Positions 17,943 through 43,146 of a stretch of 64,000 bases of DNA are shown here, in pieces (within the stretch, counting starts at the first letter, position 1; each line of letters begins with the position of its first letter). A program made the position numbers and the translations under genes. The stretch is from Octadecabacter sp. SW4 (GTDB lineage: Bacteria; Pseudomonadota; Alphaproteobacteria; Rhodobacterales; Rhodobacteraceae): the NCBI RefSeq assembly GCF_008065155.1, contig NZ_CP042819.1, positions 186,001-250,000 on the forward strand, written 5' to 3'. The notes under the pieces were generated by a model. It was not told the origin of the DNA. It searched no databases and was given only the letters and a program-made list of their open reading frames with translations.

Positions 17943-20900
17943 TTACGCCAGCAGCCCCGCGATCCGCGCACGTGCCGAGTTGCTGCGCGGGGTCCACAAC
18001 CCGCGATCAATCGCTTCCTGAAAGCGCTGGGCAATCTCGGCCAGCGCCGGCGCGTTGTGTTCGGCGATGAAATCGCGCGTGGCGTCATCGGCCAGAAACG
18101 CTTCCTCGACCAGATCAAAATGATGGTTGCGCACAGCCCCCGTGGTGGCGGCAAAGGCGAACAGATAATCGACCGTCGCTGCCATCTCGAAGGCACCCTT
18201 GTAGCCGTGCCGTTTGACGCCTTCGATCCATTTGGGGTTCACCACACGTGACCGCACGACGCGGCCAATTTCGTCATCCAGCGTGCGAATGACCGGGCGT
18301 TCGGGGCGGGAATGGTCATTGTGATAGATCGGTCGGTCACGGCCCTGCAAGCTGCTGATCGCAGCTGCGGCGCCACCCTCGAATTGGTAATAATCGTCGC
18401 TGTCCAGAAGGTCGTGTTCGCGGTTGTCCTGATTTTGCACGATGGCTTCGGTCTGGGACAGGCGCGCCTCGAATGCGGCGCGATCGCGCTGCCCTTCGAC
18501 CCCCGCGCCATAAGCATAACCGCCCCATTCCAGATAGGCCTCGGCCAGATCGGCCTTGTCAGCCCACAACCGTTCATCAATCATCGCCTGCAGACCAGCG
18601 CCATATGCACCGGGTTTTGAGCCAAAGACTCGCGCACCATCCTCGCCCGCCTTTGTGCGCGCCGCGGCGGGGTTCAGGTCGGCCGGTTCATCCAGCGCCT
18701 GCACGGCCCGCGCCGCGCTATCCACCAGCGCGATCAACTGCGGAAAGGCATCGCGGAAAAAGCCGGAAATCCGCAGGGTTACATCGACACGCGGTCGCCC
18801 CAGAACACCCTGCGGCAGCACCTCGAACCCGGTGACGCGGCGGTTGGCGCTGTCCCACTTGGGTTTGACACCCATCAGCGCCAAGGCCTGCGCAATGTCA
18901 TCGCCGCCGGTGCGCATATTGGCAGTGCCCCAGGCTGTGATCAGCATGGTGCGGGGCCAGTCGCCGTGATCTTGCAGGTGCTTTTCAATCAGCAAATTCG
19001 CCGATTTCCACCCCAGCGCCCAGGCGGTCGGGGTCGGCACGGCGCGGCTGTCAACACTGAAAAAGTTGCGCCCCGTCGGCAGGACATCCAGCCGCCCGCG
19101 CGTCGGTGCGCCGGACGGCCCGGGCGCGATCGCGCGGCCTGAAAGGGCGGTCAGCAGTGCGCGACCCTCCGAGGGGCCACAGGCGCGCACCGCAGGCAGG
19201 ATGGTGTCGGCAATTTCCGTCAAAACGGCCTGTGTCGCGGGCAGGTTTGCGCCCTCACCGCCCCATCCGCCATCCCGCAGCAGGTTTTGCGAGAGCAGTT
19301 CAAGCCGTTCAACCGTATCGCCATTGCTGCGCCATGTGTCGCGGGTCAGGTCGTGCAGGACCGCGGGCTTTACAGCCGCCGGTGCCGCCATGTCACAATC
19401 AAGCGGATCAATCCCAAGGCCCAGATCAGCCGCAAGTGCGCGCAACAGCGAGGCATTCCCGCCACGGCCATCCCCGCGCGGCACCCGTGCCAGCGCAATC
19501 GCCAGATCACGTTCCAACGTGCCGACGGGTGATTGCCCGAAAACGTGCAGCCCGTCCCTGATCTGCGCTTCTTTCAATTCGCAAAGGTAGGCATCGAGCT
19601 TTGCCAGATCGGTATCCGCATCCCCCGTCATGCCGGTGTCGGCGGCCAGCCCCGTGACCTCGGACAATGACAGGATTTCGCGGCGCAGGTGATCGATCCG
19701 GCGCGGGTCAACACCTGCGGCCTCGTAGTATTCATCGACCAGGGCTTCGAGATCACGCAGCGGTCCGTAGCTTTCGGCGCGGGTCAGCGGCGGTGTCAGG
19801 TGATCAACGATCACCGCTGCGGCACGGCGTTTGGCCTGCGTGCCTTCGCCGGGGTCATTGACGATAAAGGGATAGATGTGCGGTGTCGCACCCAGCACCA
19901 CTTCGGGCCAGCAGGTTTCCGACAGTGCAATTGCCTTGCCCGGCAGCCATTCCAGATTGCCATGCTTACCCATATGCACGATCGCATCGGCGCGGAACTG
20001 GGTGCGCAGCCAGAAATAGAACGCCAGGTAGTTATGCGGCGGGACCAGATCGGGCGAGTGATAGGTATCGGTCGGGTCGATATTATAGCCGCGCGCCGGT
20101 TGCAGCCCGACAACGACATTGCCAAAGCTATGGATCGAGAGGGCAAAGCCCTTGGCCGACCGACCCTCCGGGGGGAGTTTTCTGGCCAAGATGAAGGGAT
20201 CATCTTCGGGCTGACCCCATCGCGTCGTGATTTGTTGTTTGACCTCCCAAGGGAGCGCATCGAAATGTTGTTTGTAGCTGTCAAGCGCAAGGAATTCGCC
20301 GCCCGACCGATCTGCCCGATCCGTCAGCCAGTTTGTCGGCCCCGCCATGATCTGCGCCATCAGGGCGGCACTGTCGGCAGGCGGGTCGGTGACGCGATGG
20401 CCCGCTTCTCCCAGAAGCTGCAGCGCATGAACGGTCGCGGCGGGTGTATCCAGCCCGACACCATTGGCCAGTCGCCCGTCCTTGTTGGGGTAGTTCGCCA
20501 GCACCAGTGCGACCTTGCGATCACCCTCCGGCGCGGTGCGCAGCCGCGCCCAGTTCACAGCCAGCTCTGTGACCCAGGCGATCCGGTTGCCATCTGCCTG
20601 ATATGTGGCGATCGGGCATTCGGTCGCGTCGTCAAAATACGCCTCGCCCTTAAAGCTGACGGCGCGCGACAGGATGCGCCCGTCAACCTCGGGGAGGGCC
20701 ACGTTCATGGCGATATCGCGGGCGGAAAGGCCGGTCAGCCCCTCATCCCATGCCGCGCGCGAGGAGGCCGCAAGCACGACCTGAAAGACTGGCGCGGCAT
20801 TGGCAGATGGCGCGGCAAGCGGGTTATCGGTTGCGCCATCGCCTGCGTGCGGACTGCCCACAGCGAAGGAGGTGCAGTTCAGGATCACGCTTGGCGGCGC

Positions 20901-24672: not shown

Positions 24673-24720
24673 TCTGTCTCTCCTGTTCCGTCACACCCGA
24701 CGGGGTTGATTACATCGCAT

Positions 24721-24905
24721 GGCAGGTCTCCTGGCTTGCGGGTCAAAGTTTGGTGTCGGCCTTCCCGGTTTCCCAGTGGCGCTGATGACACCGCACTCTC
24801 CGCTGACAGTCGCGGGGGCGGCTGTGGATTTGAACCTCCGGCTAGGATCGGTCCGCACCACATTCCCTTTTGATCCCCTGATGCTTTGCATCCTTGGCGG
24901 GGAAC
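24721..24905 (-). promoter_or_regulatory. Cobalamin (B12) riboswitch
   Basis: Read on the minus strand, the conserved pieces occur in order: GGTTCC, AAAAGGGAATGTGGTGCGG, the CCGCCCCCGCGACTGT core, the GCCACTGGGAAACCGGGAAG segment and the terminal box AGCCAGGAGACCTGCC. It ends about 48 bases before cbtB, so adenosylcobalamin is expected to repress cbtAB expression. Confidence 0.95.
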
Positions 24906-25002
24906 CATGCCCGCCCTTAGTGCGCTGTTTGGACAGGGTGCGTCAAGGCAGATTGCGACGTTTGGCAGTTGCCCCGCGGCTTTGGCGACCAAGGCGGGCG
25001 GC

Positions 25003-25047
25003 GGAGCCTCCGGCGGGAGTTTTTATGAACAAAAGAAGATCTGGGTG
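25003..25047 (+). repeat. Dispersed CCTCCGGCGGGAG repeat
   Basis: GGAGCCTCCGGCGGGAG forms a short GC-rich hairpin followed by a T-run and a purine-rich GAACAAAAGAAGA tail ending in TGGGTGG. The same layout recurs at 39503 and, in other versions, at 36929, 43106 and inside cobN. The hairpin with T-run could also end transcription. Confidence 0.6.
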
Positions 25048-36928: not shown

Positions 36929-36963
36929 AAGCCTCCGGCGGAAGATATTTTGGAAGAAAAAGC
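36929..36963 (+). repeat. Dispersed CCTCCGGCGG repeat before cobI
   Basis: AAGCCTCCGGCGGAAG followed by ATATTTTGGAAGAAAAAG is a shorter relative of the copies at 25003 and 43106. Its GGAAG part lies where the ribosome-binding site of cobI should be. Confidence 0.55.
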
Positions 36964-36964
36964 C

Positions 36965-37666
36965 ATGAGTGGGACATTGTTTGGCGTGGGCCTTGGCCCC
37001 GGCGCGCCCGATTTGATGACCCTGCGCGCGGCGCGTTTGATCGCTGGCGCAGGCGTCGTCGCCTATCCGACGCTGGCCGGGGGCGAAAGTTTCGCGCGCG
37101 CGATTGCCGCTGAATTGATCAAGCCGGACGCGGTCGAGATTGTCATGGACGTGCCAATGACAACCGCGCGCGAACCCGCGCAAAAGGCCTATGACAAAGG
37201 CGCGGCGGACATTGCGGCGGCTTTGGATGCCGGTCAGGATGTGGTGTATCTGTGCGAGGGCGATCCGTTTTTCTACGGCTCGTTCATGTATATTTTTGCC
37301 CGCCTTGCCGACCGCTATGATGTGCAGGTCGTGCCCGGTGTCACCAGCATCACCGCATGTGCGGCGCGCGCCGGTCGCCCGCTTGTGGCGCGCAATGAAC
37401 GTCTGACCGTCTTGCCCGGTCCGCTGCCCGAGGGTGAACTGCGCGCACGTATTGAAGGGGCCGAAAGTGTCGCAATCATGAAGGTTGGCCGTCATCTGGC
37501 GAAAATTCGTGCTGTGATCGACGACTTGGGCTTAACTGAATTTGCCACCTACGTGGAGCGCGCAAGCCTGCCCCAAGAGGTGGTATTGCCGCTGGCTGAC
37601 GCCCCCAGGGACGCGCCGTATTTTTCAATGATACTTCTGACGAAAGGGGCTGATGCATGGCTTTGA
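36965..37666 (+). CDS. cobI: Precorrin-2 C20-methyltransferase CobI
   Basis: The 233-residue SAM-dependent tetrapyrrole methyltransferase makes precorrin-3A. It starts GTLFGVGLGPGAPDLMTLRA; the conserved VVYLCEGDPFFYGSFMYI lies near residue 95 and VVPGVTSITACAARAGRP near 122. I used the ATG at 36965; a TTG start 15 bases upstream lies inside the repeat and is less likely. The gene overlaps the cobJ fusion by ten bases. Confidence 0.94.
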   Translation: MSGTLFGVGLGPGAPDLMTLRAARLIAGAGVVAYPTLAGGESFARAIAAELIKPDAVEIVMDVPMTTAREPAQKAYDKGAADIAAALDAGQDVVYLCEGDPFFYGSFMYIFARLADRYDVQVVPGVTSITACAARAGRPLVARNERLTVLPGPLPEGELRARIEGAESVAIMKVGRHLAKIRAVIDDLGLTEFATYVERASLPQEVVLPLADAPRDAPYFSMILLTKGADAWL

Positions 37667-43105: not shown

Positions 43106-43146
43106 GGAGCCTCCGGCGGGAGTTTTTTGGCCAAGATGAAGGGGAA
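43106..43146 (+). repeat. Dispersed CCTCCGGCGGGAG repeat before fmt
   Basis: GGAGCCTCCGGCGGGAG, a T-run and TGGCCAAGATGAAGGGG; the 3' GAAGGGG supplies the Shine-Dalgarno sequence of fmt. It is the closest match to the copy inside cobN (34 of 37 bases). Confidence 0.7.

Follow-up and report, generated by a model that had tools for sequence, protein, structure and literature searches.

The cobN gene of Octadecabacter sp. SW4 contains, antisense to its own reading direction, a copy of a small dispersed repeat of the Rhodobacteraceae, a family of mostly marine bacteria. The repeat has very probably been inserted, or rewritten, in frame within cobN in the manner of the RPEs of Rickettsia, and appears to be tolerated there as a protein loop. 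The original prediction of an RPE-like insertion in the CobN loop was made from the window, i.e. the whole stretch of 64,000 nucleotides that was analysed; it is supported by the presence of a dispersed repeat family, by the CobN sequences of relatives, and by copies of the repeat in XdhB and BchB. Table 1 lists the positions of cobN and of the individual repeat copies (L numbers are our labels for loci, and R1 is a sequence model described below).

Table 1. Location of cobN and of repeat copies within and between genes. Positions are those of the window unless a locus is given.
Feature	Position	Strand	Evidence
cobN, cobaltochelatase subunit CobN, 1240 aa	17943..21665	-	open reading frame; TIGR02257, 1599 bits (cut-off 822)
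Repeat copy within cobN, antisense to cobN	20161..20199	+	R1 match, E = 1.1e-11; profile 24.8 bits, antisense (L031)
Intergenic copy upstream of fmt, top-scoring copy of the genome	43106..43143	+	R1 match, E = 6.4e-12
Intergenic copy, second tail subfamily (GAACAAAAGAAG)	25003..25040	+	R1 match, E = 6.0e-8; shared with the genus mate (orthologous site L258)
Probable copy, third tail subfamily (CCTCCGGCGGAAG...GGAAGAAAAAGCC)	36932..36965	+	pattern match with 2 mismatches (this pattern alone is at chance level in the window); absent from the R1 list
In-frame copy in xdhB, window genome	G000:C1:2708689-2708711 (L298, L301)	sense	gene named by TIGR02965
Copies in bchB	L346 (1499-1532), L353, L360, L367, L373	sense	profile

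The open reading frame and the letters of the DNA confirm the position (20163–20199), the strand and the in-frame reading that had been predicted for the cobN copy. The copy encodes ILARKLPPEGRSA, so that the CobN sequence reads DPF-ILARKLPPEGRSA-KGFALSIH. Its identity with positions 43108–43144, given originally as 34 of 37 bases, is 33 of 37 on recount. The 32-base core, with up to two mismatches, occurs twice in the window and is absent from 100 dinucleotide shuffles. The predicted extra length is real, but it is smaller than the 12–14 residues proposed: the span from DPF to FAL is 21 residues in the window CobN and 11 in the shortest common insert-free loops, a difference of +10, and relative to the 16-residue loop type the net gain is +5. 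The element is weakly palindromic.

The normal location of the repeat is between genes. The shared unit is ~33–40 bases and has a core of ~33 bases (GCCTCCGGCGGG, a T-rich stretch, and a tail, e.g. GGCCAAGATGAAG); roughly one copy in four has, ahead of the core, a hairpin whose sequence is unrelated. Three tail subfamilies were distinguished by eye in the window genome: GGCCAAGATGAAG, GAACAGAAGAAG and GGAAGAAAAAGC. A genome-wide search with the pattern GAGTTNTNNNGCCAAGATGAAG (up to three mismatches) finds it 17 times, and in 15 of these there is one mismatch or none; the reversed control gives no match. R1, a sequence-only model of 42 positions built from ten copies of the window genome, was used to score 150 of 2967 candidates from a first look and yields 51 matches at E ≤ 10. 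For 46 of these the sequence context was read; the other five are weak (E 0.11 to 1.3). Two of the 46 lie in the deep interior of well supported genes (cobN and xdhB); four others are at the edge of called genes or in a doubtful 65-aa open reading frame. The exact core CTCCGGCGGGNNTNTT is present 9–42 times per genome in ten genomes, against 0–1 for its control. The model, the pattern and the exact cores show a repeat dispersed through the genome well above chance, as had been expected. Four plasmid records (Parasedimentitalea, Tritonibacter) have repeat copies as well; viral contigs gave no match to a consensus of 30 bases.

Intergenic copies are found predominantly at the ends of genes. The 171 copies counted are a pool of 176 (the one used for the profile below) less one (N or length), three in called genes, and one without a neighbor on one side; gene calls are from our own caller, so gene edges are uncertain. 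Of these copies, 160 adjoin the 3′ end of a gene. Divergent spacers account for 11 of the 171, compared to 221 of 739 background spacers (at least 40 bases). Where the tail points at a gene end, 45 of 85 copies are within 10 bases of that end. Intergenic stretches at loci L144, L124 and L130 contain inverted pairs of copies, arranged tail to tail or core to core. The window copy of the second tail subfamily is ~80 bases past the 5′ side of a cobalamin riboswitch (RF00174, 116 bits, positions 24704–24924, minus strand). This riboswitch is the only Rfam match in the window at the gathering threshold, so that at this threshold no curated RNA family is matched by the repeat.

The CobN loop was compared among relatives. 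A CobN fragment finds matches in 167 of 198 family genomes, the weak ones being probably BchH; the best 80 CobN loci, of at least 80 available, were picked by CobN similarity, and because there are duplicate records (L033–L035, L038 and others), counts are restricted to these 80. Copies were scored with a profile made from 176 copies, a pool that includes one cobN copy (L344), a bchB copy (L346) and one chance match (L176, 1378); scores of L068 (cobN, from the genome of L344) and of L346 are therefore partly self-matches. Over 110 loci the profile gives 87 matches at 10 bits or more, with 2 in the reversed control, and 77 with 0 at 12 bits or more.

The repeat is present in the CobN loop at 30 of the 80 loci (≥10 bits). 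All 30 are antisense and, by eye, in one frame; 29 are from parsed loops and one (L066, which has DVF in place of DPF) is counted from its profile match. A short loop of 10–18 residues is found at 37 loci, and 13 have a long loop (at least 20 residues) that is below the threshold or unscored. Loop lengths end at FAL or FKLSI, which are two residues apart. Some of the long sub-threshold loops (L072, L083, L089, L128) resemble other variants of the repeat; L087, L090 and L099 seem to have other sequences. The longer CobN insert of L090 (10001–10747; LPSCGRAPPGGEAG) looks hairpin-like in its DNA and perhaps belongs to another repeat family. In the neighborhoods of the 80 loci there are 73 matches: the 30 in the cobN loop and 43 that are intergenic or no more than 60 bases from a gene edge. 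None was found deeper in any called gene besides cobN.

The more distant CobN proteins compared lack the insert or have other residues there, in agreement with the original prediction; this comparison covers a second CobN branch of the same family and two chains of known structure. In the second branch, 14 of 15 loops are readable and all are short, and none of 20 loci has a repeat match at 8 bits (five are unparsed and probably BchH). The loop of PDB CobN chain 9uk9 is 8 residues shorter, and it has AREL where the window CobN has ARKL, a likeness that we regard as coincidental. In chain 7c6o the loop position is filled by different residues.

Two other enzymes show the repeat in frame. The xdhB copy scores E = 0.11 with R1 and 22.3 bits with the later profile; it belongs to a different tail subfamily, which accounts for the weak R1 score. 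Among the best 30 XdhB loci of the family, a sense copy occupies the loop that joins NYY to TPY in 7, counting the starting case. By eye, several other XdhB loci display a long-hairpin form (GGGGGCGCTGCCCCC). In the gene that we take to be bchB, a name assigned from its sequence by inspection, 5 of 31 loci (L346 included) have a sense, in-frame copy in the linker before the C-terminal part; one of these linkers was parsed, L346 was read directly, and three placements come from coordinates. The reversed control is 0 for both genes. Unparsed loops are kept in the denominators: 5/30 and 3/30 for xdhB, 12/31 for bchB, and 6/20 for the second CobN branch.

A structural model of CobN residues 250–720 (AlphaFold, 31 sequences) has a mean pLDDT of 64.7. 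In this model the insert is a stretch almost without regular structure that leads from a helix to a strand, and fragment residues 246–251 have a pLDDT below 50. A Foldseek search with this low-confidence fragment model confirms the CobN/ChlH/HmuS fold. The model is compatible with a tolerated loop; the surface position is a prediction that relies on this low-confidence model.

How the cobN copies came to be where they are is a separate matter from the identity of the segment. A gene tree of CobN was made by a quick method with 82 tips, excluding the insert columns. The insert is present in 32 of the tips, and its presence changes at least 16 times (100 shuffles: mean 25.2, minimum 19); when every loop of at least 20 residues is counted, 45 tips are positive and there are again 16 changes. 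One ancient insertion followed by vertical descent, many losses and homogenisation within each genome (concerted evolution) would explain why the cobN copies read are alike in site, strand and frame, and we give this history a little under an even chance. It would require 24 losses, compared to 16 changes in all at equal costs; the two histories tie if gains are costed twice as high as losses. A degenerate tail common to L067, L073 and L077, which form one small clade, is in accordance with descent, but L075, of the same clade as L067, has another tail, and by eye the element is displaced from DPF in L072, L109 and L116. In the near pair L063/L076, a 39-base gap is found at the cobN site in otherwise closely similar DNA; in seven aligned pairs with and without the insert no target-site duplication, which together with terminal inverted repeats marks MITEs, is evident by eye. 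The tails themselves tend to be those of the resident genome. When the cobN tails of 11 genomes are compared with 174 other copies (samples of 6 each, taking the two nearest), distances to the own genome add up to 32.4, compared to 56.8 on average, and none of 200,000 permutations, in which the relatedness of genomes is ignored, is as low; the own-genome pool is nearest in 7 of the 11 genomes and ranks 2, 3, 4 and 4 in the other four. This tendency suggests that the cobN site has been lost, refilled or rewritten repeatedly. The cobN tail of the genus mate (L032) differs from that of the window genome. At ten orthologous intergenic sites of these two genomes the element is present in both; some pairs have the same tail type, and in three (L274/L019, L276/L269, L260/L290) it has switched, so both fresh insertion and rewriting in place are possible. 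A site that keeps its element and switches its tail is also what homogenisation predicts, but we know of no established process by which ordinary recombination homogenises 33-base repeats. On the sequences compared, the cobN site has probably been colonised or overwritten more than once.

It is unlikely that the element is kept in cobN for a function of its DNA or RNA, e.g. as the end or pause site of an antisense transcript or as a binding site for a factor. Its constant orientation in cobN and its terminator-like location at gene 3′ ends would fit such a function, as would the stems before the core: a perfect stem of at least 6 pairs is present in the preceding 45 bases in 46 of 175 copies, compared to 5 when shuffled, and 19 of 175 have such a stem in the 45 bases that follow the tail. 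There is also a promoter-like site (9/12; 0.1 in shuffles) at positions 20058–20086 on the plus strand, antisense to cobN and ~75 bases upstream of the repeat, and the hairpin-bearing cobN copy of L078 folds better than its shuffles (z = -2.74; 3 of 200 shuffles do as well), as does, less clearly, a hairpin-bearing intergenic copy (z = -1.87). However, the repeat is missing at threshold in 50 of the 80 relatives (37 with a short loop), and its orientation in xdhB and bchB is the opposite one. A terminator scan gave no site overlapping the cobN or the fmt copy, the two window copies considered, and the window cobN copy folds at the level of its shuffles (z = -0.63; 51 of 200 shuffles do as well; fmt copy, z = +1.29). 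That the segment is ordinary variation in loop length with a chance match to the repeat is improbable in the extreme. Loop length does vary without the repeat, as the 37 short loops and some long loops of other sequence show, but the shuffled, reversed and permuted controls speak against chance, and the window genome and a Yoonia MAG (L061) have 42 identical bases at the cobN copy while their flanks are 72% and 82% identical.

An in-frame insertion or rewriting of the repeat, tolerated as a loop, is thus the reading that we prefer. At a point between DPF and GFALSIH a copy would enter cobN, or overwrite it, in frame, and would be read as about ten added residues in a loop that connects a helix to a strand. 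Its persistence would be due to the tolerance of the loop and to the open frames of the repeat. Translation into about ten extra CobN residues, and an effect on CobN that is close to neutral, are both probable on this reading. A broader proposal is offered tentatively, as possible rather than probable: a family-wide repeat, still spreading or homogenising, may repeatedly recolonise the same permissive loops of CobN, XdhB and BchB, tending to the local variant, in one strand and frame per gene as far as the copies were read, and without a known transposase; a short homology of the GAAG in the tail to host codons (GAANGGNTC at DPF) may guide it. With many replicate species, each a case of one CobN loop filled, emptied or rewritten, insertion rate, tolerance and copying route would become testable. 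The copies also mark loops of CobN, XdhB and BchB that accept added residues, and repeat-derived stretches of this type can mislead alignments and gene annotation.

Several known repeat systems are similar in part. Among the matches listed in a search of the open-access literature, none describes this repeat in Rhodobacterales, as the original prediction had supposed; the Rhodobacterales names sought do not occur in the text of PMC3733652. Small extragenic dispersed repeats of 20–40 bp are also represented by REP sequences with their RAYT/TnpA_REP transposases. In the available descriptions these have a GTAG or CGTC tag, which is missing from the ends of our ten-copy consensus, and the Y1_Tnp domain (PF01797) was found in 1 of 13 family genomes and in neither the window genome nor the genus mate, both of which are among the 13. 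The CIR of Caulobacter is likewise an intergenic repeat of an alphaproteobacterium; it has GANTC methylation sites, as excerpted (PMC2229807), and by inspection our consensus has none. Reading the two window copies as intrinsic terminators was rejected, as a GC-rich stem with a T run is lacking. Each of these three classes, REP/RAYT, CIR and intrinsic terminator, thus fails a feature tested. ERIC/RU-1 (127 bp) and RU-2 of Yersinia (168 bp) are intergenic repeats that are fused in frame to open reading frames (PMC2229807, PMC2759123); their hosts are unrelated bacteria, and going by the parts of the descriptions at hand they are set apart by size.

The closest likeness is to the RPEs of Rickettsia. 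These are 105–146 bp long with long stem-loops and are present in frame inside protein genes (PMC2229807, PMC10969869); an RPE in gmk was tested and the enzyme is still active with an altered substrate affinity (PMC2229807), and relatives of RPEs in other Rickettsia species are, in the excerpts consulted, also mostly within open reading frames. The Rhodobacteraceae repeat is similar in being a small dispersed repeat in frame in conserved protein genes (cobN, xdhB, bchB), where it is apparently tolerated. It differs in having ~33 bases and a short core hairpin, and because of size and stem-loop it is not classed as an RPE. The RPE passages at hand give no case of one loop occupied across many genera by copies that tend towards the variant of the resident genome, as appears here. 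The protein-coding palindromic repeats of Wolbachia, likened by title alone, are another alphaproteobacterial case within genes. What is new, as judged from the sequences, is the recurrence in one CobN loop across relatives with a tail that tends toward that of the local genome, together with two further enzymes. Small protein-coding repeats, known in Rickettsia and by title in Wolbachia, would thereby extend to the Rhodobacteraceae.
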